IMG/VR virus record: IMGVR_UViG_3300005466_000518
Span: 1 to 24,822 of that record
Reading direction: 5' to 3' (one strand)
From: a virus
Length of the DNA stretch: 24,822 nt
The position numbers and the translations under genes are program-made. The notes beneath the pieces are model-generated. The model was given only the letters and a program-made list of their open reading frames with translations. It was not told the DNA's origin and searched no databases. The number at the start of each line of letters is the position of its first letter. Within the stretch, counting starts at the first letter, position 1. This document shows, in pieces, positions 5,447-24,764 of the stretch.

Positions 5447-6250
5447 TTACCTCCGGGTCCGGAAGTCGCGCAGGCGGCGCGACAGCTCCAGACGGGTCTT
5501 GAGGTCGGCCGCGGGGGCTTCCACCAGCTCGCTTTGGACCGTCGGCAGAAGGCGCTCGAGCCGCGCCGCGGAGGCTTTCGCCTCGGCGAGCAGGTCATCG
5601 ATCGCCTGACGATGGCCGTCGGCCAGGGTGCGGCCGTCGGCGACTCGGCGGGCGTAGAGGGCTTCCGCCGCATCTGCGCCAACCTTGAGAAATCCACGGA
5701 CCTGGGCCAGGACGTCGCCGAACGGCTCATCCTGGTCGAGGGCGAACAGCTCGTCGACGGCCTTCGCGGCGCGCTCGACGCGCGACTGCAGCCGCTTGAC
5801 CTGCGTCACCAGCGCCTGCTCGTTCATCGGCAGGGTGACCAGGCTGCACTCGAGCAGGTCGACCTGGGTCAGCTTGCGCACGCCCACGTCGTCGAACTCG
5901 AGCTCGGTCGGCAGGTAGCCAATGCTCATGGAGTCGATGGCGCCGGCCTTCAGCAGCTTGTGGGCGTCGGTGCCGCGGGCGGTGTCGATGACCTTCCACG
6001 TGCCGATCAGCCCGCGGTCGTCAGCCTTGAGGTTGACCTCAACCCCGATCGGCTCGCGCAGGTCGTGCTGCCACAGCAGGGGCCGGCGCTTGCGGGTCAC
6101 GAGCGAGGCGTCGAACGCGCCGCGCATCACCACGTCGCCACCCTGGTCGACGTTACCGAACGTGCTGGCGTACCCGGTGAAGGTCCAGCCGCTATCCGTT
6201 GCTTTGAGCTCTGTCAGCTCAAACGGGACCGTCTGGTAAACCGTATCCAC
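5447..6250 (-). CDS. HK97-family prohead maturation protease
   Basis: The protein is 267 residues starting at GTG 6250; GGAGG lies 11 bases upstream, and an ATG closer to it is out of frame. FTGYASTFGNVDQGGDVVMRG near residues 24-44 is the typical opening of the U35/HK97 gp4 family. His62 (LLWQHD) and the Ser in DSMSIGY (107 or 109) are the expected catalytic residues, and LECSLVTLPMNEQA follows as in the family. Residues about 150 to 260 are a long helical extension rich in Ala, Leu, Glu and Arg. This extension is bigger than in the shortest family members and may act as extra scaffold. The enzyme cleaves the capsid delta domain and itself during head maturation. Confidence 0.93.
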   Translation of the reverse strand: MDTVYQTVPFELTELKATDSGWTFTGYASTFGNVDQGGDVVMRGAFDASLVTRKRRPLLWQHDLREPIGVEVNLKADDRGLIGTWKVIDTARGTDAHKLLKAGAIDSMSIGYLPTELEFDDVGVRKLTQVDLLECSLVTLPMNEQALVTQVKRLQSRVERAAKAVDELFALDQDEPFGDVLAQVRGFLKVGADAAEALYARRVADGRTLADGHRQAIDDLLAEAKASAARLERLLPTVQSELVEAPAADLKTRLELSRRLRDFRTRR

Positions 6251-6392: not shown

Positions 6393-6506
6393 TCAGGTGG
6401 TGATGACGTTCAGCGTCTTGCAGCGGTGGCACTTGAGCTCGACGCTCGAGCCCGGCGCCACCCGCCCGATCGGCGCCTGGCAGCCGGCACAGCGGACCAG
6501 TTTCAA
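6393..6506 (-). CDS. Com-like zinc-finger protein (TTG start)
   Basis: This 37-residue protein resembles the Com family (phage Mu Com, a zinc-finger RNA-binding activator of translation). The sequence LKLVRCAGCQAPIG and then ELKCHRCKTLN carries the paired CxxC motifs and the KCxRCKTLN end that mark the family. The TTG at 6506 overlaps the stop of the preceding glycosyltransferase (TTGA), and starting there gives the usual short Com N-terminus, so I prefer it to ATG 6575, which would add 23 unrelated residues inside the glycosyltransferase gene. In Mu, Com permits translation of the Mom DNA-modification gene. No Mom-like gene is seen here; a role in controlling the neighbouring head genes is only a guess. 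Confidence 0.8.
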   Translation of the reverse strand: MKLVRCAGCQAPIGRVAPGSSVELKCHRCKTLNVITT

Positions 6507-7627
6507 CCGCTCGTCACGAGCGCCGTCGACGTGGGCGACCTGGCTGCGGTTGCTGTCGCGAGGATGTTCGACCATGCCTGCGGCCACCTCCACCAGTTCT
6601 GCGCGAGCGCGTGCTCGGTCAGGATGCGCTGCCGTTGCGCGCGGCGCAGGCGCCGGCGCAGATAGGCGTCGTCGATCAGCCGCGCCAGGGCGTGCTCCCA
6701 CTCGGCGGCGGTTTCCGCTACCAGCGCGTCCTGGTCATTGGTGACGTAGGGCCCATAGAGCGTGGGCGAGACGACGCAGGCCGCGCCGGCGAGCGAGTAT
6801 TCCCACAGTTTGATCGGGGTCTTACTCGTGTTGAACAGCTTGGGGGCGACGCTGCAGCAGCCAATGTCGATGTTGAGCAATCCCCGCGGGTATTCCGCCA
6901 GCGGCAACCACGGCAAGCGCCGCACGCGGTCGGCCGGCACCGCGTCGACCAGGCCCGGCGCCATATGCCCCTGCACGACGAAGGTAACCTGTGGGTACCG
7001 GGGGGCGAGCCGAGCCCAGGCTTCAGCGACGGGCAGCAAGTCGTCGGGCTCGCGCGCCCCACCGGCCCAGCCGATGGTCAACGGCCGGACGACGCGCTTG
7101 CACCCCCGCAGGGTGCCCTGGAACCACTCGACGTCGATAGCATTGGGCACGACCTCGACGGGCTTCGTCGTGTACTGCCGCACCACCGTCGCCAGCCGGC
7201 GGGTGCTGACGGTGATGCCGTCCACCTGGTCGAGTAGCCAGATGCGGCCTTGCCGCTGCCGCTCGAGCAGATCGAGCCCCTTCTGCCGCTCGCGGTCGAA
7301 CACGGCGTACTGCCGCGGCGCGATGGCCGGCGAGTACATGTCGTCGTCGACCTCGAGGATGACCGACACGCCGGCGTTGTGGACCTGAGCGAGCTGCTCG
7401 CGCGCCGCGCGCATATTGGCCCACGACATCCGGGCCAGGATGACGGCGTCGAAGTTGTAGGGCACGTTGGCCTGGAAGCGGGCTGTCTGGAGCTCGGGAT
7501 CGCGGGTCGACTTCCAGTGGGCGAACACGCCGCGGCGCTGCAACTCCGCGAATGGCGCCCATATTCGCCAGAGGGTCGGGCCGAGCTCGTCGCCGACCAG
7601 CGCCAGGACCCGCGGCGTGTCGGTCAC
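6503..7627 (-). CDS. GT-B glycosyltransferase (GT4-like)
   Basis: The protein is 374 residues from GTG 7627, overlapping the Mu-F-like stop (GTGA). The N-terminal domain holds strands such as VLALVGDELG and ILEVDDDMYSP; the second domain starts at about residue 190 with LTIGWAGGAREPDDLLPVAEAW, the standard start of the donor-binding domain in Glycos_transf_1 enzymes. VVQGHMAPG, RVRRLPWLPLAEYPRGL, and KLWEYSLAGAACVVSP near 275-290 correspond to the conserved later motifs, with the Glu of WEYSLAG in the usual place for donor contact. It is complete. Lying between head-morphogenesis genes, it probably modifies virion proteins or host glycans late in infection. The acceptor is unknown. Confidence 0.88.
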   Translation of the reverse strand: MTDTPRVLALVGDELGPTLWRIWAPFAELQRRGVFAHWKSTRDPELQTARFQANVPYNFDAVILARMSWANMRAAREQLAQVHNAGVSVILEVDDDMYSPAIAPRQYAVFDRERQKGLDLLERQRQGRIWLLDQVDGITVSTRRLATVVRQYTTKPVEVVPNAIDVEWFQGTLRGCKRVVRPLTIGWAGGAREPDDLLPVAEAWARLAPRYPQVTFVVQGHMAPGLVDAVPADRVRRLPWLPLAEYPRGLLNIDIGCCSVAPKLFNTSKTPIKLWEYSLAGAACVVSPTLYGPYVTNDQDALVAETAAEWEHALARLIDDAYLRRRLRRAQRQRILTEHALAQNWWRWPQAWSNILATATAARSPTSTALVTSG

Positions 7628-13239: not shown

Positions 13240-13487
13240 CAGCCGCGCTCAGCCTGTTTCGCCTCGCTGGCAATCCGTTTCCAACCGCTCGGCGCCTGGT
13301 CGGACGGAATCGAGAACCAGGTCCCGTCGGCCGGATCGCGGACGTTCAGCCAGCCGCGCGCGCGAGCCCAGACGATGGCCGGGGGCCAGAGATTTGAGGC
13401 CGCGCCGTTTCCGTTTTTCTGTTTTTCCCTATATAGGGAATAATCAGAAAACAGAATATTTGTTCGGCTCGGCGCGGGGTCAGTCAT
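13239..13487 (-). CDS. Small hypothetical protein carrying an AT-rich nested palindrome
   Basis: The protein is 82 residues from ATG 13487, overlapping the primase-helicase stop by 8 bases. The N-terminal third (NILFSDYSLYREKQKNGNG) is encoded by DNA far richer in A and T than the rest of the window and contains the palindrome at 13417-13456. The rest (PPAIVWARARGWLNVRDPADGTWFSIPSDQAP) has normal composition and looks like a small folded domain. The stop overlaps the nuclease ATG (ATGA). The N-terminal residues may be dictated by the DNA signal rather than by protein function. No family recognised. Confidence 0.6.
   Translation of the reverse strand: MTDPAPSRTNILFSDYSLYREKQKNGNGAASNLWPPAIVWARARGWLNVRDPADGTWFSIPSDQAPSGWKRIASEAKQAERG
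13417..13456. promoter_or_regulatory. AT-rich nested palindrome, possible origin, operator or terminator
   Basis: Outer arms TTCTGTTT (13417-13424) and AAACAGAA (13449-13456) enclose a perfect 16-bp palindrome TTCCCTATATAGGGAA (13425-13440). The surrounding 45 bases are the most AT-rich run I see in the window. It lies between the primase-helicase and the nuclease genes. Confidence 0.55.
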
Positions 13488-15402
13488 CGTCGTAGACCCG
13501 CTGGTAGTAGCGGTATGGATCGCCCCGTTTGCCCAGCCCGAGCTTGCGCACCTGACCCTCGCGGACCAGCTCGCCGAGGACCCGCAGAATGTCGGCCGGC
13601 GCGCCCGTCACCGCTTCTTTCAGCTCGCCCGTGCTGAGCGCGTCGTCGGGGTTTGTCGGCAGGTTCGCCAGAATGTCGCGGCGCAGCACCTGGTCACGCA
13701 CGACGTCGGCATCGCCGAGCGCGGTATAGGTGTGTGGTTCCTGCGGCCCGAGCTCGACCAGCAGCTTGTCGGGCGTCTCCTCGAACCGACTGATGCCCTC
13801 AAGCAGGCGCTGCCGCTCTTTGCCCGCGGTATTGCTGCCGAGCAACCGCTGCAGATGCAGCACGATGTCGACGGCACCGGCGTACGCCGAACTGCCCCGC
13901 CCACTGTCCCCCACGTCGCCCCCCGACTTGCGATCGTGGCGTGACACCAGCACGGCCAGCCCAGCGCCGGCCGCGGTTTGTAGCGGCTCCATGACCAGCA
14001 ACGCGGTCCCGGCGCTGTTCTCGGCATCGCCGCGGATGCCGCTGAACTGCCCCAGGGTGTCGACAATCAGGATCCGCGCGCCCACCTCGGCGGCATGCGC
14101 CTGAGCCTGCGCGACGACGGCGTCCCACTTCAGGCCGATCGCCTTCGGCCACAGCAGGACGTGCAGGTCGTTCCGCCCGAGCAGCCCAGCGCGGCGCAGG
14201 TTGCGTTTGAACGACGGCCCTGACTGTTCCGTCAGGTAGACGATCGGCGTGTAGGTGGTGGCCTGACCGAGAAATGGCTCGCCCTCGAGGATGGCCCGCA
14301 CCATCGCCAGCACGAGCGTGGTCTTGCCAGATTGCTTCACTTTCCCGTCCAACTCGGCGATGAGGCCGCCCCCGAGCAACCCGTGGGCATACCAGGTGAT
14401 CTGCTCGTCTTCCATCACCGCGATCTCCGCGGCGGTCAGCCATTCCACCAGCCGCGGCCGGGCCGAGTGCCCCGTGCCGTTGCGCCGGTCCGTCCCCGCG
14501 GCCGGGCTCTGCAGCACTATCCGCCGCGGCCCCTGTGACTGCACCGCGCGCGCGACGATGATGCGGTACCGCTCGCCGGCATCACGCCGGCCCGAGAACT
14601 TCGTCCAGCCGAGACTGGCGTCACGCTCGACGAGCAGATCCTCGACGAAGTGCGGCGCACAGCCCGCGTCGAGCAGCGCCACCGCCAGCGACCACAGCGA
14701 ATAGCTGCGGTCGATCTGTCCCGTCTGCGAGTTGGTGTCGAAGGTTCGTCCGTACCAGCGCTCAAGGGCCTCGCCACGCAACGCCACCGGGGGGTCGCCC
14801 GGCGTGCGCGACACGGTCGCCGTGCTCGGCGGCGGCTTCTGTTTGGCCCGCAGCATGTCCGTCGCCCAGCCAGGCTGCGGGACCACCGGCGGCGCGATCG
14901 GCATACCCTGCTCGGGCTGCAGCCAGGTGTAGCTGAGCAAACTCTGATGCCGACTCGGCGGCACGACGGCATAGCCGGCGCTCAGCAGGTCGTACTCGCC
15001 GGTCTGCGTCAGCCGATAGATCGGGCAGTCGGCCGTACGCGCGTAGAGGTGATGCTCGTGTCCGGGCCCGCCGCCCGACGCAAATGACAGGGTTGGCGGC
15101 ATCCCGCGGGCATCGAATTCCGCCCACCAGGCGATGCTGTCGGGAGCCAGGTCGACGAGTCCAGACCGCGCGAGGTCGATGCCGATATTCGCCTGCGGCC
15201 ACGACGTGAACCAGCGCGTGATCTTAGACGGGTCGGTCGTCGCATCCTCGAGCCCATTCATCGTCCGCGGGTGCTTGCCCGTGTTCCGCCCGCAGTCGGC
15301 TTTCTTCGGGCAGTCGCAGACGCCGTTGTCATCCGGCGTGTGCAGCGGCACCACCAGCCAGCCGAGGTGGGCGTAGTGCAGCGCGGCCTCGAGCGGCGTC
15401 AC
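13480..15402 (-). CDS. Primase-polymerase / AAA helicase fusion
   Basis: The protein is 640 residues from GTG 15402 (GTGA overlap with the nuclease before it). Residues 1-160 are a Prim-Pol (archaeo-eukaryotic primase) domain: AHLGWLVVPLHTP, a Cys-rich knuckle CDCPKKADCGRNTGKHPR (29-46), the first catalytic strand GLVDLAPDS (81-89), SGGGPGHEHHLYAR (109-122) and GEYDLLSAGYAVVPPSRH (135-152). The usual D-x-D is A-P-D here. Residues about 200-300 are a helical linker. Residues 320-560 are a RecA-like AAA_25 helicase domain with Walker A KVKQSGKTT (354-362) and Walker B RILIVDT (443-449). The C-terminus resembles a winged helix. It should prime and unwind phage DNA at the fork. Confidence 0.9.
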   Translation of the reverse strand: MTPLEAALHYAHLGWLVVPLHTPDDNGVCDCPKKADCGRNTGKHPRTMNGLEDATTDPSKITRWFTSWPQANIGIDLARSGLVDLAPDSIAWWAEFDARGMPPTLSFASGGGPGHEHHLYARTADCPIYRLTQTGEYDLLSAGYAVVPPSRHQSLLSYTWLQPEQGMPIAPPVVPQPGWATDMLRAKQKPPPSTATVSRTPGDPPVALRGEALERWYGRTFDTNSQTGQIDRSYSLWSLAVALLDAGCAPHFVEDLLVERDASLGWTKFSGRRDAGERYRIIVARAVQSQGPRRIVLQSPAAGTDRRNGTGHSARPRLVEWLTAAEIAVMEDEQITWYAHGLLGGGLIAELDGKVKQSGKTTLVLAMVRAILEGEPFLGQATTYTPIVYLTEQSGPSFKRNLRRAGLLGRNDLHVLLWPKAIGLKWDAVVAQAQAHAAEVGARILIVDTLGQFSGIRGDAENSAGTALLVMEPLQTAAGAGLAVLVSRHDRKSGGDVGDSGRGSSAYAGAVDIVLHLQRLLGSNTAGKERQRLLEGISRFEETPDKLLVELGPQEPHTYTALGDADVVRDQVLRRDILANLPTNPDDALSTGELKEAVTGAPADILRVLGELVREGQVRKLGLGKRGDPYRYYQRVYDDD

Positions 15403-17685: not shown

Positions 17686-17886
17686 TTAGGCCGCCGGCCG
17701 CCGTCGGCGCTCGAGTTGCGGATAGCGGCGATCGATGTGCTGCTCGGCGACGATGTTCAGATACGCCAGGGCATCCCGACGGTCGGCTTCGGCCAGGGCG
17801 TGCAGCTTGCGCCAGCGTTCCTCGTCAAACTCAAGCGGCCCCAGACGGAAGGCGCGGGCCGGCCGGGGCGGGGTGGTCTGGGTCAT
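17686..17886 (-). CDS. First gene of the early leftward operon, hypothetical
   Basis: The protein is 66 residues. It has a proline-rich start, then a helical, charged region (FDEERWRKLHALAEADRRDALAYLNIVAEQHIDRRYPQLERRRR). The ATG at 17886 lies only 6 bases after a CAGACT -10 element and lacks a Shine-Dalgarno sequence, so a leaderless mRNA is likely. Being first behind the putative repressor-controlled promoter, it could have a regulatory task such as an anti-repressor or Cro substitute, but it has no recognisable helix-turn-helix. No family recognised. Confidence 0.65.
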   Translation of the reverse strand: MTQTTPPRPARAFRLGPLEFDEERWRKLHALAEADRRDALAYLNIVAEQHIDRRYPQLERRRRPAA

Positions 17887-17892
17887 GGGGCC

Positions 17893-17927
17893 AGTCTGCG
17901 GTGTCGCAACCGCAACTCAAAAGCGCA
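17893..17927 (-). promoter_or_regulatory. Bipartite element copy 1, candidate early leftward promoter
   Basis: Read on the minus strand: TGCGCTTTTGAGT, 15 bases, GCAGACT. It contains TTGAGT and CAGACT hexamers 16 bases apart, and the ATG of the first early gene begins 6 bases further. The same 35-bp layout recurs at 18403 and 19351 on the plus strand. Confidence 0.6.
17897..17914. promoter_or_regulatory. Candidate repressor operator in the early promoter
   Basis: TGCGGT and ACCGCA, perfect inverted 6-bp arms with a 6-bp spacer, fill the space between the -35 and -10 hexamers of the early promoter. This is a typical location for a CI-like operator. A second copy was not found in the window, which is unusual for phage operators. 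Confidence 0.45.
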
Positions 17928-17945
17928 GTGAATCCACCACTTTTC

Positions 17946-18004: not shown

Positions 18005-18274
18005 ATGTCGCACTGGAACGGTACTGAGGCTATTCGCCAGATGACTGACAAAGGATCATCTGGGGAAGTGCTAGTGCCCAGTTTGAACTACTATCGCCGC
18101 CGCCTCGCGTTGTCCCAGGAGAATCTGGCCGAAAAGGCCCACGTCGCGAAATCGACGGTTCGCCGCGGCGAACAGGGCTTGCCAGTCCGGCCATCCAGCG
18201 TCCAGAAGCTCGCCCGGGCGCTGCACGTCAAACCCTGGGAGCTGCAGCAGCCCGCGCCGGATGTAAACGCCTGA
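18005..18274 (+). CDS. XRE/CI-type helix-turn-helix repressor
   Basis: The protein is 89 residues. The domain near 27-80 is a typical HTH_3: LNYYRRRLALSQENLAEKAHVAKSTVRRGEQGL with the recognition helix around VAKSTVRRGE, then PSSVQKLARALHVKPWELQ. There is no C-terminal peptidase or dimerisation domain as in lambda CI, so it is a short, Cro-sized regulator. The frame allows ATG 18005 or ATG 18041; neither has a strong ribosome binding site. Its divergent setting against the early operon and next to the integrase makes it the likely immunity repressor or excision/early switch protein. SOS cleavage is not expected, so induction must use another route. Confidence 0.85.
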   Translation: MSHWNGTEAIRQMTDKGSSGEVLVPSLNYYRRRLALSQENLAEKAHVAKSTVRRGEQGLPVRPSSVQKLARALHVKPWELQQPAPDVNA

Positions 18275-18288
18275 GCGTTCGCGAACGC
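18275..18288. repeat. Perfect 14-bp palindrome after the repressor gene
   Basis: GCGTTCGCGAACGC begins directly after the repressor stop codon. It lacks a following T-run, so it is a weak terminator candidate; an operator for the downstream PAS gene is equally possible. The 248-base gap 18275-18522 otherwise holds no convincing gene. Confidence 0.45.
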
Positions 18289-18402
18289 CCGTTCTAAAGT
18301 ACCGGCCGGCAACGGGTAGGCATCCCGAAATGAATCCGATATGCTCTTGATTCGGTGCACTGGCAATGGCGGCTAAACTTTCACAAAAACTGACCCATTT
18401 CG

Positions 18403-18437
18403 TGCGCTTTTCACTGACTGGATAGCCGCCGCAGACT
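18403..18437 (+). promoter_or_regulatory. Bipartite element copy 2, before the PAS gene
   Basis: TGCGCTTTTCACT, 15 bases, GCAGACT. It differs from copies 1 and 3 in the two S positions of the first block (CAC for GAG). It would give a transcript starting about 80 bases before the PAS gene, which has its own ribosome binding site (GGAGGGCGAGGGG). Confidence 0.5.
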
Positions 18438-18522
18438 GCGTCGTATTCCATTTCGGGACAAGCGCGACGGCAGACCACACCGCCCGCTGCCCATCGCCAG
18501 GAGGGCGAGGGGATGACGATCG

Positions 18523-19329
18523 ATGGCAGATAAATCGGGCCACGACAGACCGCACGGCTACGTTCCACCTGGCCGACGTCCAGGCTTCAGTATGTCCGCA
18601 GAGGATGTGCTCGCAAAAGCTGAGGCGTACGAGCGCCGCACCCGCACACCCAAGCTGGCCGAATTCCTGCGCACGGAGAACATTCAAGCCAATGGGGTCC
18701 AGCGGGGAATCCTGAGTCCGACGCAATTCCGCGCCTGGCGCCGGGGCTACGGCCTGGACTATCCGATGGTGCCGCTGGCCGACGAGGCAGACCGCCGCGT
18801 GGTGGTTTTCTACGTCGACGACCGGCCGCCGCATGTCGTGCGCTGGGTCGCCGGCAACATCGCAGCGGTCTTCGGCTATGAGCCTGCCCAGGTGCTGCAG
18901 GCACCGTTTGCGGACCTGGTCTGCGGGCTGCAAGCCGCGGCGGTCCACCACCTCTTTGCCGCCCCCCGCCGTGGTGCCGCGCATCATCGCACGCCACCCA
19001 ACCCGCTGTGCCTGTTGCGTCAGGATGGCCGCGAGCTGCACGTCCAGGTCCATGCCCACTACGGAGCCCGGAGCGGGGCCTGGTACACCACCGTCGCTGA
19101 GCTCGATTCGGCCGTTGAGGCCGACGACGCCGAGCCACTTTTCAACGTCGAGCCGTATCTGGTCGCCCCGATGGCGCTGACCGTCAAACGCTCCCTCCGC
19201 GGGCATAGCGCCGGCCGCGCGGCGGTCACCGGCCATGTCGGGAGCGGCAAGTCCTTCCTGTTTGCCCGTGAGACCACTCGAGCCTGGCTCGAGCACGCCG
19301 AGCGCCACCTGGGTCAGGACGAAGGCTGA
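18523..19329 (+). CDS. PAS-domain regulatory protein beside the repressor
   Basis: The protein is 268 residues. The start at ATG 18523 follows GAGGGG by 10 bases. Residues about 25-80 are helical (MSAEDVLAKAEAYERRTRTP and ILSPTQFRAWRRGYGLDYP) and may bind DNA or a partner. Residues about 85-205 look like a PAS fold: VVVFYVDDRPP, VRWVAGNIAAVFGYEPAQVLQAP, a linker, then LCLLRQDGRELHVQVHAHYG and GAWYTTVAEL, the usual strand order with the FGY-E-A/E-x-LG-like helix. The C-terminus has GHVGSGKSFLF, a P-loop-like string, yet only about 28 residues follow, too few for an ATPase. It may sense a ligand or redox state and tune lysogeny. That role is inference. Confidence 0.75.
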   Translation: MADKSGHDRPHGYVPPGRRPGFSMSAEDVLAKAEAYERRTRTPKLAEFLRTENIQANGVQRGILSPTQFRAWRRGYGLDYPMVPLADEADRRVVVFYVDDRPPHVVRWVAGNIAAVFGYEPAQVLQAPFADLVCGLQAAAVHHLFAAPRRGAAHHRTPPNPLCLLRQDGRELHVQVHAHYGARSGAWYTTVAELDSAVEADDAEPLFNVEPYLVAPMALTVKRSLRGHSAGRAAVTGHVGSGKSFLFARETTRAWLEHAERHLGQDEG

Positions 19330-19350
19330 GTCTGAAACTGCGCTATTCGC

Positions 19351-19385
19351 TGCGCTTTTGAGTGATTGTCGCTGGGCTGCACACT
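19351..19385 (+). promoter_or_regulatory. Bipartite element copy 3, before a small gene
   Basis: TGCGCTTTTGAGT, 15 bases, GCACACT. The first block plus a flanking base is a 14-bp exact inverted copy of the one at 17915-17928. The ATG of the next gene begins 7 bases after CACACT, again suggesting a leaderless mRNA. Confidence 0.55.
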
Positions 19386-19392
19386 CAGCGAC

Positions 19393-19611
19393 ATGGTCGC
19401 TCACCAGCCGCTGCCGCACGAACTCCTTGAGGAGCTGGCCGACCTGGTCGCCGATCGGCTCGACCAGCGCCATGCCGAGCAGCATCTCAATGCCGCCACG
19501 ATCAGTGCCAAGTGGACTGATCGGCTGGCGAACACCTTGCGCGACATCCGCCTGCGACGGCTAGCCTCAGAAGGTCGTGCAGACGTGGTGGGAGATCAGC
19601 CAGAGTCCTGA
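19393..19611 (+). CDS. Small hypothetical protein downstream of the PAS gene
   Basis: The protein is 72 residues from ATG 19393. The frame is open further upstream with a TTG at 19366, but that would place the promoter element inside the gene. It is helical throughout: PLPHELLEELADLVADRLDQRHAEQHL, then AATISAKWTDRLANTLRDIRLRRL, with a polar tail. There is no Shine-Dalgarno sequence, and the start lies 7 bases behind a -10-like element. No family recognised. The helix pair could be a small DNA-binding or excision-factor-like protein, but this is only position and composition. Confidence 0.6.
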   Translation: MVAHQPLPHELLEELADLVADRLDQRHAEQHLNAATISAKWTDRLANTLRDIRLRRLASEGRADVVGDQPES

Positions 19612-19792
19612 CTATCAGGCCTGGGCACACGCGCGACCGAGCGGCCGCACCGCCCGGCTGCTGCGGACCCTGGACGAGATCCGCCGCTTACGCGGGGCGG
19701 TGCCAGCGGATGGTGGGGTCGCCTGCGACGTCGAGGACCACCGCCTCGACGAGATCAGGCAGGACCCGTCCCCACTCGGCGTCGGTGAATGA
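19577..19792 (+). CDS. Doubtful small ORF overlapping the recombinase end
   Basis: A GTG at 19577 opens a 71-codon frame that overlaps the previous gene by 35 bases and then runs antisense to the last 105 bases of the recombinase. The first part, TWWEISQSPDYQAWAHARPSG and LLRTLDEIRRLRG, looks like a plausible small protein; the part over the recombinase (after residue 37) looks like shadow sequence. It may be real, with a convergent overlap, or spurious. Without it, the stretch 19612-19687 would be non-coding. Confidence 0.3.
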   Translation: MQTWWEISQSPDYQAWAHARPSGRTARLLRTLDEIRRLRGAVPADGGVACDVEDHRLDEIRQDPSPLGVGE

Positions 19793-21388
19793 CGCAACGT
19801 CGATGTCGCCGAGCTCGGCCAGCGCCTGGCCCAGATCGAGCGCCGCCTGCTCGGCGCGCTGAACAATGAGCCGCTGCGCTAGAAGCTGCCGCTTGCGTTC
19901 TTCGGTCTCACGCCTCTTGCTGGCGATCTCCGCGGTCTGCCGGTCGTAGACGTTCTTGCTGATTTCCTTCTTGTCGTAGCGCTCGTACAGGCGATTCTCG
20001 CGGTCGTCCAGTTCGGCCAACGCCTGATCGAGCTCGTCGAGTATCCGCGCCTCGTCGGCCAGGCTGCGCGCCTCGACCTCTTGTTCGGCGAGGACCTGCC
20101 GCCGCTGCTCTTCGGCGAGCGCCAGCGGATCGCGCAGCGCCTCGATGAGTCGTGCTCGGACACGCGGCCACACGCCGGGCTGCGACGGCGTGCCGCCGCC
20201 CTGGCTGCGCCTGCCGGCGCTGTTGACCGGCAGGCTACGCATGCCACACGGCTCCTGATTGACCAAGGTGCGGCCCTTAGCCATCCGCGCGGCGCAGGCG
20301 ATATAGAGGTACGTCCGCTCACCCTGACGGCGCAGGTTCCAGCGCACGCGCCAGGTGCACCCGCACAGCACGGTGACGTGCCGCAGCGGGTGGTCGAATT
20401 CGTAGGGGCGCCCGCCGTGCTTGCCGTCGCGCTGCTTGATGAGCGTATCGAGCGTGTCGGCCGCAGGATACTCATCGCGCCTGCAGCCGCCGCCCAGGCG
20501 GCACTGCGTCCGCTCCAGTTCACTGCTGTGGATCAGCGGCGGCACCGTGAACGCTACCCGCGCTGGGTTGGCGATGCGCCTGCGGATGATGAAGTGGCCA
20601 TCGACCCGGTCCTTCACCTCGAGCCCGCGGGCATACGGCAGCTCGCCCTTCAGTGCCGGGTTGCGCAGCAGATTGCGGAAGCGCTGGCTCGTCCACTCCT
20701 TCTTTGCCCCACGCTTCGGGTCGAGCGGCGCATGCTCGGTCAGCCAGCGGCACGCCTCGCGCGCGGAGCCCGTCGGCTCGGCGTACAGCTGGAGCGCGTG
20801 CAGGAACGCCGCAGCACGGTCCGGGACGATGACCGCGCCCAACGCGGTCGGGTCACGCTCGAGCCAGTAGGGCTTCATGCCGGCCATCCACTGCCCGCGC
20901 TCGGCGCGCGTGCGCCGCTGCTCCATCGACCGTCGCCGCGTGGTATCCGCTTCCATGCCGCTGATGCCTGCCCAGATGCCGATCTGATCGATGTTGTACC
21001 CATCGCGGGTGGCCTCATAGGTGTACTCGGGAAGCTGCGCGTGCAGCATCACGATCGGGTACGCGCCAGTCACGCCGCGATGGAATCGATAGTGGTCATA
21101 GAAGATGACGCCCGAGTGTTTCTTGCTATGCGCATCTTCGATCAGGCCGCGCAGCGCCAGGCGATCAGGATCGAAGCCCGTGCGCCAATCGATGTAGATC
21201 GCGACGATGGTCAGCCCGCGCTGCTTGGCGTACAACGTCTCGGCGGCGAGTTGGTGCTCGATCGAGACCGCCTTCGGATCGTCGTCCGAGAGACGGCAGT
21301 AGAGGGCACGCATGTCGGCAAAGGCGACCGATGGATCGAAAGGCACCAGACGGACCTCATGGTGGTGCGGCTTGCGGCGACGGGGCAT
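19688..21388 (-). CDS. int: Large serine recombinase (integrase)
   Basis: The preferred start is ATG 21388 (566 residues) because a TATACT element lies 7 bases before it and an attP-like dyad occupies the sequence up to the alternative ATG at 21427. The resolvase domain has ALYCRLSDDD with the catalytic Ser34, SIEHQLAAETLYA, and FYDHYRFHRG as the Arg-rich motif. The recombinase domain follows (about 190-290: GQWMAGMKPYWL, WTSQRFRNLLRNPALKGE). A zinc-ribbon region has VTVLCGCTW and the Cys residues near IACAARM and EPCGM. Residues about 420-530 form a long coiled coil. This is the full domain order of phage integrases such as those of phiC31 and Bxb1; it integrates the genome at an attB site. 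Confidence 0.93.
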   Translation of the reverse strand: MPRRRKPHHHEVRLVPFDPSVAFADMRALYCRLSDDDPKAVSIEHQLAAETLYAKQRGLTIVAIYIDWRTGFDPDRLALRGLIEDAHSKKHSGVIFYDHYRFHRGVTGAYPIVMLHAQLPEYTYEATRDGYNIDQIGIWAGISGMEADTTRRRSMEQRRTRAERGQWMAGMKPYWLERDPTALGAVIVPDRAAAFLHALQLYAEPTGSAREACRWLTEHAPLDPKRGAKKEWTSQRFRNLLRNPALKGELPYARGLEVKDRVDGHFIIRRRIANPARVAFTVPPLIHSSELERTQCRLGGGCRRDEYPAADTLDTLIKQRDGKHGGRPYEFDHPLRHVTVLCGCTWRVRWNLRRQGERTYLYIACAARMAKGRTLVNQEPCGMRSLPVNSAGRRSQGGGTPSQPGVWPRVRARLIEALRDPLALAEEQRRQVLAEQEVEARSLADEARILDELDQALAELDDRENRLYERYDKKEISKNVYDRQTAEIASKRRETEERKRQLLAQRLIVQRAEQAALDLGQALAELGDIDVASFTDAEWGRVLPDLVEAVVLDVAGDPTIRWHRPA

Positions 21389-21395
21389 TGCCGGG

Positions 21396-21401
21396 AGTAT
21401 A
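21396..21401 (-). promoter_or_regulatory. Candidate -10 element of the recombinase gene
   Basis: TATACT on the minus strand ends 7 bases before ATG 21388, so the mRNA would begin at or next to the start codon. No good -35 hexamer is visible; the region upstream is the attP-like dyad. Integrase expression may therefore change when the site is recombined. Confidence 0.5.
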
Positions 21402-21403
21402 TA

Positions 21404-21447
21404 GCGCAAACCAGTTTCCCGTTCCATAACCGAAAACTAGTTTGAGC
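21404..21447. other. Candidate attP site: 44-bp imperfect dyad upstream of integrase
   Basis: Left arm GCGCAAACCAGTTTCCCGTT (21404-21423) and right arm AACCGAAAACTAGTTTGAGC (21428-21447) match as inverted repeats in 16 of 20 positions around a 4-base centre CCAT. Serine integrases use attP sites of about 50 bp with imperfect dyad symmetry, often just upstream of the integrase gene. If this is an intact attP, the window is from an unintegrated or circular genome. A promoter operator is the alternative. Confidence 0.55.
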
Positions 21448-22670: not shown

Positions 22671-22700
22671 TTGACAGCGCGTCCATTACGTTGGTACTGT
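22671..22700 (+). promoter_or_regulatory. Sigma-70-like promoter for the ParB-like genes
   Basis: TTGACA (22671-22676), 18 bases, TACTGT (22695-22700). The -35 is a perfect consensus. Transcription would start near 22707, and GGGGAGGTG lies about 7 bases before ATG 22730. This is the clearest promoter-ribosome binding site pair in the window. Confidence 0.65.
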
Positions 22701-22729
22701 CTGACCATCATCTAGGGGAGGTGGTCTCG

Positions 22730-23752
22730 ATGGCCGCCGCAGCGACTTCTGCGTCTTCGTCGCAGGTCACGGAGATCGAACGCCTGGGCTTCAAATGGAA
22801 TGAAGTTGCCCAATTCGACCTGGCTCGTCTTGATCGCGAGAATCGCGCCGTTCAAGTCCGGGCGGCGAACAACTACGCCCACCGTGACGAGGTCACCGCA
22901 TACGCCCAGCAGATGGGCCAGGTTGCCTTTCCACCAATCGTGGTGACGAAGGATGACTATCTCGTCGATGGCAACACGCGGGTTGCTGCAGCGGTCAGCC
23001 GCAAGGATCGATTCTTCCCGGCGATCATCATCGGCGAGGCCTACGCGACCGCTGAGCCATCGCGTCAACTCGAGTTCAAGGCGTTAGCCGCCACGCTGAA
23101 TAACCAGAATGGTCGACGGCAGACGCCGCGGGAGATGCGGCAGACCGTGGCTGAACTGGTGAGTTTGGGCTGGCGGATCGATCAGGTGCAGCGTGTAACC
23201 GGTGCCAAGCCAGCAGACGTACGACAGATCAAGTGGGAGATCGACGCCCGCGATCGGCTCAAGACGGTCGGGCTCAGTAACGGTCAGGTGCGGGCTACGG
23301 GCGCCTCGCTACGAACGCTTGGCAAGCCAGTTGTTCTGGGACTCAATCACGAGCCGTATCGGGAAGTCGCTCGACTCGCAATGGATGCCGGACTCAATGC
23401 GGCCGAAATTGTCGAAGTGGCAACAAGTGCCAAGGCCACCGGTAGCGACCAGGCGGCACTCGAACAGATCTCCAAGGTGCGCCAGGAAAATGCCGAGCGC
23501 ATCCGTCGACATCAGTTTGAGGCCGGCACAACCAAGCCTCCCGTTGCTCGCCAACTCCGCCAGCATCTGGGCTTTGTCGCCGCGTTCGACGGCAAAGAGT
23601 CTGCGTTGATCGAGACAAACCATCCGTCGATGGCCCAGCACATCGACGTACTGGATAAAGCGATGCGGATTCTCACCGACGTTGCGACCCTGCAACGCGC
23701 GAAACTCACCGAGATTGAAGAAGAGCTCGCCGCCAGTGGCACCAGCAACTAA
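22730..23752 (+). CDS. ParB/Srx-fold DNA-binding protein 1
   Basis: The protein is 340 residues from ATG 22730, 7 bases after GGGGAGGTG; a TTG at 22691 further up is in frame but lies in the promoter. The ParB N-terminal fold shows as VAFPPIVVTKDDYLVDGNTRVAAAVS (65-90), with DGNTRVAA in the place of the usual DGhHRxxA motif (box II). A helix-turn-helix region follows around RQTPREMRQTVAELVSLGWRIDQVQRVTGAKPADVRQ. The C-terminal third is helical. It may bind DNA for partition, regulate genes or act as a nuclease as some ParB-fold phage proteins do. A ParA-type ATPase is not present in the window. Confidence 0.82.
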   Translation: MAAAATSASSSQVTEIERLGFKWNEVAQFDLARLDRENRAVQVRAANNYAHRDEVTAYAQQMGQVAFPPIVVTKDDYLVDGNTRVAAAVSRKDRFFPAIIIGEAYATAEPSRQLEFKALAATLNNQNGRRQTPREMRQTVAELVSLGWRIDQVQRVTGAKPADVRQIKWEIDARDRLKTVGLSNGQVRATGASLRTLGKPVVLGLNHEPYREVARLAMDAGLNAAEIVEVATSAKATGSDQAALEQISKVRQENAERIRRHQFEAGTTKPPVARQLRQHLGFVAAFDGKESALIETNHPSMAQHIDVLDKAMRILTDVATLQRAKLTEIEEELAASGTSN

Positions 23753-24764
23753 ACTCGCGCGGCCGGGCTACGCGCTGGACTTCGTAAGCGTCGTCGTTCA
23801 CGTCGCGGCCGAATTGGAGAGCGCCGGTCCGGCCGCGCTCTCCGTCAATGCGATTGCTGCCCGGTGGACCCCGGTGGTCACCACGGATTTGCATCGCGTC
23901 CAGGTCAATGAGGGAGTTCTTGGCGACGCTGCAGCGAAGATCTGGCTGGTGCTGCGGGCACTGCGCGAATTTGGCGACCAGATCGAGTGGCTGGCTGACG
24001 GCCGTGACGTACGGCTAGCCGTCCCGCGCAACGAGCTGCGTTGGCGGAATGAGCCGGTACCGCGGCAGGATGCGCCGCTGGTGCTGCGCGACCCGTTCAA
24101 TCCGATGAGCGGGCAGTTCGCGGAAAACGTTCGGAAGTTGAGCGGCAAGGATCAAATGACCGAGCTCCGCGAGTCAATGCGGGCGTTCGGCTGGCTCGAC
24201 TGGTTGCCAGCGATCGAGGACGAGCGGGGCGTGACGATCGTCGGCCATCGGCGGAAGTCTGTCGCGGCCGAACTTGGCATTGAGCCCGTGATCCGCAAAG
24301 TCGAATTCGGCCGGGGCGATGCGGGCGATGCTGAGCGGCTCAAGCTGGCGATTGCGTCGAATATTGGGCAGAAACCGTTTACACCCGAAGAGCGCCAACG
24401 GATCGCGAAGTACCTGTACGGCGAGCGCGGATGGGGCCTCGAGCGCATTGCCCAGGCGCTGCAAGTATCCAAGACTACGATCGGGCGTGACCTGGAAGGT
24501 TTTCCCACTGTGGGAAAACCTGATCGACCCAAAGGTGGGCGGCCGAAGCGGCCGGCAGGGGCAGCCAAGAAGGCGCGCAACGTGGCTGAGAAGGTCATCC
24601 ATCAGGGAATGACGCCACGGCAAGCCGCCGCGGAAGAAGGGTATCGGTCAACCAACGCCGAGAAGGTGGTCGATCGCGGGAAGGCCGTGCTCTACGACGA
24701 GATGATCGCGGCGCGAGAGGCGTCACCTAGCAGGCATTGCCAGACCTGTACCTGCTTCGCTTGA
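23736..24764 (+). CDS. ParB-like DNA-binding protein 2
   Basis: The protein is 342 residues. I chose GTG 23736 because it follows GAAGAAGAG and overlaps the previous stop by 17 bases; the longer frame lies inside the first ParB-like gene. Residues 1-110 are unlike anything I recognise. Residues 115-190 form the ParB N-terminal fold: PFNPMSGQF, MTELRESMRAFGWLDWLPAI, and VTIVGHRRKSVAAEL with the GHRR motif (170-173). A helix-turn-helix follows (ERGWGLERIAQALQVSKTTIGRDL, 230-253). FPTVGKP (256-262) is encoded by a 25-bp palindrome. The tail is basic and ends with HCQTCTCFA, three Cys of unknown use. Likely partner of the first ParB-like protein. Confidence 0.82.
   Translation: MAPATKLARPGYALDFVSVVVHVAAELESAGPAALSVNAIAARWTPVVTTDLHRVQVNEGVLGDAAAKIWLVLRALREFGDQIEWLADGRDVRLAVPRNELRWRNEPVPRQDAPLVLRDPFNPMSGQFAENVRKLSGKDQMTELRESMRAFGWLDWLPAIEDERGVTIVGHRRKSVAAELGIEPVIRKVEFGRGDAGDAERLKLAIASNIGQKPFTPEERQRIAKYLYGERGWGLERIAQALQVSKTTIGRDLEGFPTVGKPDRPKGGRPKRPAGAAKKARNVAEKVIHQGMTPRQAAAEEGYRSTNAEKVVDRGKAVLYDEMIAAREASPSRHCQTCTCFA
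24497..24521. repeat. Perfect 12-bp-arm palindrome inside the second ParB-like gene
   Basis: AGGTTTTCCCAC, a central T, and GTGGGAAAACCT. It encodes Glu-Gly-Phe-Pro-Thr-Val-Gly-Lys-Pro between the helix-turn-helix and the basic tail. It could be the ParB-like protein's own binding site, or a protein motif whose codons happen to be palindromic. Confidence 0.6.

Follow-up and report, generated by a model that had tools for sequence, protein, structure and literature searches.

The region at positions 18005-19329 of the analysed window (the whole stretch of 24,822 nucleotides, virus record IMGVR_UViG_3300005466_000518) is best explained as a module for lysogeny control in a temperate phage of the HK97 type, known from metagenomes only, in which a regulator with a PAS domain would serve as an additional induction input. 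We assign this explanation, taken as a whole, a probability of about one in two. In the proposed mechanism the XRE protein encoded by the first gene would act as the repressor, and three TGCGCTTTT elements are predicted operators of the XRE or the PAS protein, with element A at the putative early promoter, B at that of the second gene and C downstream of the second gene. The product of the second gene would be a regulator joining a helical, possibly DNA-binding N-terminal region to a PAS domain, whose most likely role is to bind a small molecule or a cofactor. Such binding would alter the activity of the regulator at the operators or on the repressor, resulting in an induction input independent of RecA cleavage; operators, ligand, partner and direction of control are the parts of this scheme that we infer. 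The module would work in the manner of VqmA-type and XRE-LuxR phage modules, belonging to neither family. Most studied prophages are induced by DNA damage, and to our knowledge few phage switches possess a dedicated sensor domain (VqmA, LuxR-type, arbitrium). Obtained results suggest that in the window phage and several of its relatives the timing of induction may depend on a signal from the cell which is not DNA damage. A clade repeatedly placing PAS proteins at its switch would offer new, testable cases of phages sensing the metabolism or the signals of the cell, as well as a natural series of swapped regulators.

Relatives were gathered by primase-based scans, the closest being L002 (IMGVR_UViG_3300005364_000014). 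Neither the PAS protein nor the primase, used as queries, retrieved a relative from genome contigs. The minus strand of the window carries the portal, terminase, capsid and protease genes; a glycosyltransferase gene (6503-7627, minus) lies within this head-gene cluster, with portal and protease genes on either side. The primase gene (13480-15402) is followed by a gene of an SLT-domain protein, then by the lysogeny locus and by the gene of a large serine integrase of 579 amino acids (19688-21427, minus; Resolvase 4.6e-11, Recombinase 1.7e-6, phrog_95 6.9e-34). Two ORFs that overlap each other and give ParB-like matches (22691-24764) were noticed past the integrase, at the right end of the record. 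The leftward early (lytic-direction) operon starts with a gene of 66 codons' product length (66 aa; 17686-17886, minus), divergent from the repressor gene. Its product is 97% identical to the counterpart in L002 and 39% identical to that in a further relative, L006; judged by eye, without Pfam support, it is a small ribbon-helix-helix-like protein.

The first gene of the module (18005-18274, plus) encodes a protein of 89 aa, whose residues 29-77 match HTH_3 (E=7.4e-7; 29.5 bits, cut-off 23) and HTH_31 (E=6.8e-7) in Pfam. Possessing HTH_3, divergent from the early operon and located beside the integrase, it is an XRE/CI-like phage repressor gene. Pfam matched no domain C-terminal to the HTH, and no S24 peptidase family was among the matches. 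Judging from its sequence the protein lacks the C-terminal peptidase domain and is probably not of the LexA/CI self-cleaving type, in agreement with the preliminary description, which had pointed to a short repressor without a C-terminal cleavage domain. The repressor is 84% identical between the window and L002, and in the L002 genome the XRE gene is the sole HTH_3 match.

The second gene (18523-19329, plus; 268 aa) was characterised by a coding test and by Pfam, profile and structure matches. Its product shares 86% amino acid identity with that of L002, with one in-frame 3-nt indel. The nucleotide differences in this frame are distributed 22/18/46 over the codon positions and dN/dS equals 0.31, while an antisense ORF of 370 aa (18373-19485) gives dN/dS of 1.21 for the same pair of genomes and was rejected as a real gene. 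Since third-position differences prevail and dN/dS is low in the sense frame only, 18523-19329 is a real coding gene, as had been assumed earlier. Purifying selection varies along the protein: dN/dS is 0.19 in the conserved helical N-terminal region (residues ~24-85), 0.32 in the probable PAS region (residues ~86-197) and 0.44 at the C-terminus, where residues 198-268 are without domain assignment. Searches of Pfam and NCBIfam recognised no DNA-binding or HTH family and no kinase or GGDEF domain in the protein, and tblastn of phage and plasmid collections returned no relative of it. Its C-terminal part contains a P-loop-like motif, GHVGSGKS (19231-19254; GHAASGKT in L002, absent from L006), shortly past which the protein stops; no ATPase family was matched.

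The PAS gene is preceded by an AGGAGG Shine-Dalgarno sequence and a minigene of six codons (18499-18533, plus; minigene 18513-18533, peptide MTIDGR), whose stop codon overlaps the start of the PAS gene. The equal arrangement with a different peptide, MSSNVG, can be read from the window/L002 alignment, and the overlap suggests translational coupling of the PAS gene. At the other end, between the convergent PAS and integrase genes, a strong hairpin is located (19359-19403, extending to about 19410, plus), the 81-nt stretch 19330-19410 having an MFE of -33.4 kcal/mol (z=-3.2). Identity between the window and L002 breaks off abruptly at the far side of the hairpin and the integrases beyond it differ, so this side looks like a module-exchange boundary.

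The PAS-like domain after a helical N-terminus, anticipated in the preliminary description, is strongly suggested by sequence and model matches which are consistent though sub-threshold, and in our judgement residues ~86-197 very probably adopt the PAS fold. The full-length protein matches PAS_4 (E=0.038) and PAS_9 (E=0.27) and no other Pfam families. For the isolated domain the values are 0.0087 and 0.045, respectively, with E=0.0048 for the L002 domain, and none of eight scrambled controls (seven shuffles and the reversed sequence) gave a PAS match. The best score, 16.7 bits for PAS_4 with the isolated domain, lies below the curated cut-off of 23.1, and the window protein stays under every curated PAS-family cut-off. 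In a six-frame scan of the 38.5-kb L002 genome the PAS gene was the only match to PAS_9 (E=0.0024) and PAS_4 (E=2.0e-4); this alone is no proof of PAS, because PAS_4 also gave a spurious, antisense match about as strong (E=5.6e-4) in the record of another phage (G006). That match, together with the sub-threshold level of all window-sequence matches and the lack of any PAS match in PDB searches with the single window sequence, would be in line with an unrelated alpha/beta domain of chance similarity. We consider such a domain improbable, since PAS families alone are matched, across several models, the scrambled controls are negative, and the predicted topology and all PDB Foldseek matches listed are those of PAS.

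The structural evidence is as follows. When the PDB was searched with a profile headed by the window domain, the first 29 matches were PAS-containing chains, LOV kinases or hERG (E 0.024-0.71); since the domains of the relatives L007 and L009 are part of this profile, the result cannot count as independent of these two. The AlphaFold model of the isolated domain, obtained from an alignment including the same L007/L009 domains, is of low confidence (pLDDT 51, pTM 0.40) and displays two strands, helices and three strands, which is the PAS order. All 50 PDB matches listed by Foldseek for this model contain PAS/LOV (E 0.007-0.027, TM 0.35-0.49), none of those listed reaching E<=0.001. The structure prediction proposed earlier as a check has thus returned the expected topology and neighbours, but at a model confidence and TM values that leave it short of a firm confirmation. 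Against viral structures Foldseek gave weak matches only, some of them to viral PAS or histidine-kinase proteins. The full-length protein, modelled from three sequences, reached pLDDT 36 and was not taken to the fold search.

As for the signal, in LOV photoreceptors the flavin-binding cysteine motif GxNCRFLQ follows the first helices. Near this position the window protein reads QAPFADLVCG and the L009 type DHPGMLLLRP; the cysteine motif is absent, and therefore light sensing by LOV photochemistry, one of the inputs suggested before, is not supported. PAS domains may also be purely structural or dimerising. The PAS protein could accordingly be a Cro- or CII-like transcription factor using its PAS fold for dimerisation only, with no sensing, which we regard as unlikely. 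The conservation of the helical N-terminal region in front of the PAS domain speaks in its favour, and in VqmA the PAS domain doubles as the dimerisation domain and is needed for dimerisation (PMC8284805). The recurrence of two PAS architectures at the locus, described below, is easier to explain by a sensory role, but is not decisive.

The sequence TGCGCTTTT is present in the window in three copies, at 17919-17927 (minus), 18403-18411 (plus) and 19351-19359 (plus), against 0.12 expected, and nowhere else. Three copies of the same positions and orientations are found in L002, also with none elsewhere, so the three shared elements reported in the preliminary description, one of them ahead of the PAS gene, are confirmed. 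Element A (17907-17938, minus) lies about 27-47 bp upstream of the start codon of the early operon, element B (18387-18420, plus) in the gap between the repressor and PAS genes, and element C (19335-19368, plus) directly past the PAS stop codon. The last one occurs at the same place in the partial contig L003, whose PAS protein is equal to that of L002 over the part present. A sigma-70 promoter scan around the elements gave no promoter-like match. Morons are commonly found downstream of the repressor and next to the integrase. The PAS gene, downstream of the repressor and adjoining the integrase, might be one of them, serving the host and standing in the lysogeny module as a gene expressed in lysogens, with no role in the switch. 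We find this highly improbable: the shared elements bracket the PAS gene, and in relatives PAS genes are arranged directly next to the early operon, divergent from it in L006 and upstream of it in the same direction in L007 and L009.

In L002 the XRE and PAS genes follow in the same order as in the window. In L006 (primase 70%) the PAS protein has a homologue (23% identity over 173 columns, BLASTP E=0.001 in a single comparison), whose gene is the one directly divergent from the early operon. The XRE gene is situated on the other side, before a tyrosine-type integrase, which separates it from the PAS homologue. The divergent gap between the L006 PAS homologue and the early operon contains a 54-nt inverted repeat, 70% complementary (L006:6600-6758). 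L010 has a homologous XRE gene ahead of its serine integrase; a PAS match was found neither there nor in L030, L031 and L035.

A different protein of 260 aa with an N-terminal PAS domain is encoded at the lysogeny locus of L007, L009, L020 and L021. The NCBIfam sensory_box model scores 25.9 bits with the L007 and 28.5 bits with the L009 protein, both above the curated cut-off of 22.9. PAS_9 also reaches its cut-off in the L007 protein, and the C-terminal region of the L009 protein gives a weak match to the DNA-binding KfrA_N (0.039). In L007 and L009 the PAS gene has the serine integrase on one side and the early operon on the other; a ribbon-helix-helix gene (RHH_1 E=3e-4 and 1e-3) is divergent from the PAS gene, and there is no neighbouring XRE gene. 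In the regulator region of L007 (L007:5978-7218) the repeat ATCGCCAGCGCT is found three times, where 0.28 copies are expected: at 5978 (minus), 6284 (minus) and 7207 (plus), surrounding the two regulator genes. With the early operon drawn rightward, these orientations give the C, B, A pattern of the window. In L009 (L009:4975-6242) an imperfect inverted pair flanks the RHH-PAS block, and a perfect 22-bp palindrome, GATGACGTATCGATACGTCATC, is located between the two genes. Homology of the window PAS family to the L009-type family was not supported (hhalign probability 0.4%).

L030 and L035 encode at this locus a third, non-PAS type of protein (L030:3551-4231, L035:5908-6567), without Pfam match and 34% identical to each other; L010 probably has this type too. 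Homology between the window PAS family and the L030/L035 gene was likewise not supported, though a 'yPMvP' motif is similar by eye. Altogether, a PAS gene of one of two kinds occupies the lysogeny locus in 7 of the 11 phages whose locus could be read (window, L002, L006, L007, L009, L010, L020, L021, L030, L031 and L035). No PAS_9 match was obtained in 31 further records, including L030, L031 and L035, the rest being mostly more distant.

Adjacency of XRE and PAS genes is limited to the window and L002. The arrangements in L006, L010 and the L007/L009 type differ, so PAS recurs at the lysogeny locus with no fixed repressor partner. The conserved repressor-PAS pair envisaged earlier therefore holds in L002 and not beyond it; L010 even retains the homologous XRE gene with no PAS match, a case that had been named as contrary evidence and applies here in part, and what has been borne out is a wider version, the occurrence of two kinds of PAS protein at one locus. 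The same arrangements bear on another explanation, in which the target of the PAS protein is not DNA but the XRE repressor, on which it would act as antirepressor or co-repressor. The two genes are same-direction neighbours in the window and L002, and the PAS protein has no recognised DNA-binding domain. However, the integrase splits the genes in L006, XRE stands alone in L010, and the L007/L009 PAS genes have no adjoining XRE, which makes a dedicated XRE-PAS pair unlikely across the clade and this explanation fairly improbable.

Tentatively, and with less than even odds by a wide measure, the lysogeny locus of this temperate phage clade may be regarded as a site at which sensor-type regulators are exchanged for one another, each bringing operators of its own in a layout common to all. 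The types replacing one another would be the helical-domain-PAS protein, the PAS-HTH-like protein and the third, non-PAS protein, and related phages would then read different host signals. Returning to the lysogeny module with a PAS regulator as an extra induction input, this explanation gains from purifying selection, the PAS-only matches, synteny in L002, the three elements placed alike in the window and L002, the L006 homologue, the second PAS type, the L007 repeats and the precedents for PAS or LuxR receptors in the control of phage lysis. It is weakened by the sub-cut-off PAS matches, the low-confidence model, the lack of a recognised DNA-binding domain, the missing profile match to the L009-type family, the lost adjacency, the relatives with no PAS match, the lack of a promoter match and the purely structural or dimerising role that PAS domains can have.

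The preliminary description knew of no well-established phage switch of this form, which has to be corrected. In vibriophage VP882 VqmA, with an N-terminal PAS domain binding DPO and a C-terminal HTH, activates qtip, and the antirepressor Qtip sequesters the repressor, leading to lysis (PMC8284805, PMC12802170). The VqmA-Qtip system of VP882 and its relatives has in common with the module proposed here a phage-encoded PAS regulator and control of lysis without DNA damage. In the window protein, in contrast, the PAS domain is internal, after a helical region, and no HTH family is matched; owing to this different domain order and the lack of a recognised HTH it is not a VqmA. Moreover, VP882 is a linear plasmid phage, whereas the window phage integrates by means of a serine integrase. 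The bacterial PAS S-box proteins (TIGR00229, PF00989, PF08448, PF13426) have the PAS fold that is probable for the window protein; the curated sensory_box cut-off is passed by the L007 and L009 proteins, but not by the window protein. The xre-luxR operons of Aeromonas phages, used together with an autoinducer (XRE-LuxR TF-smORF modules of Apop and ARM81ld), resemble the window in that XRE is followed by a same-direction receptor gene, here a putative one (PMC10432266). They differ in having a LuxR-type receptor and a separate cI, while in L002 XRE is the only HTH_3 match of the genome. PAS control of phage lysis is already known from VqmA, and the protein described here, different in architecture, may by analogy act in a VqmA-like manner.
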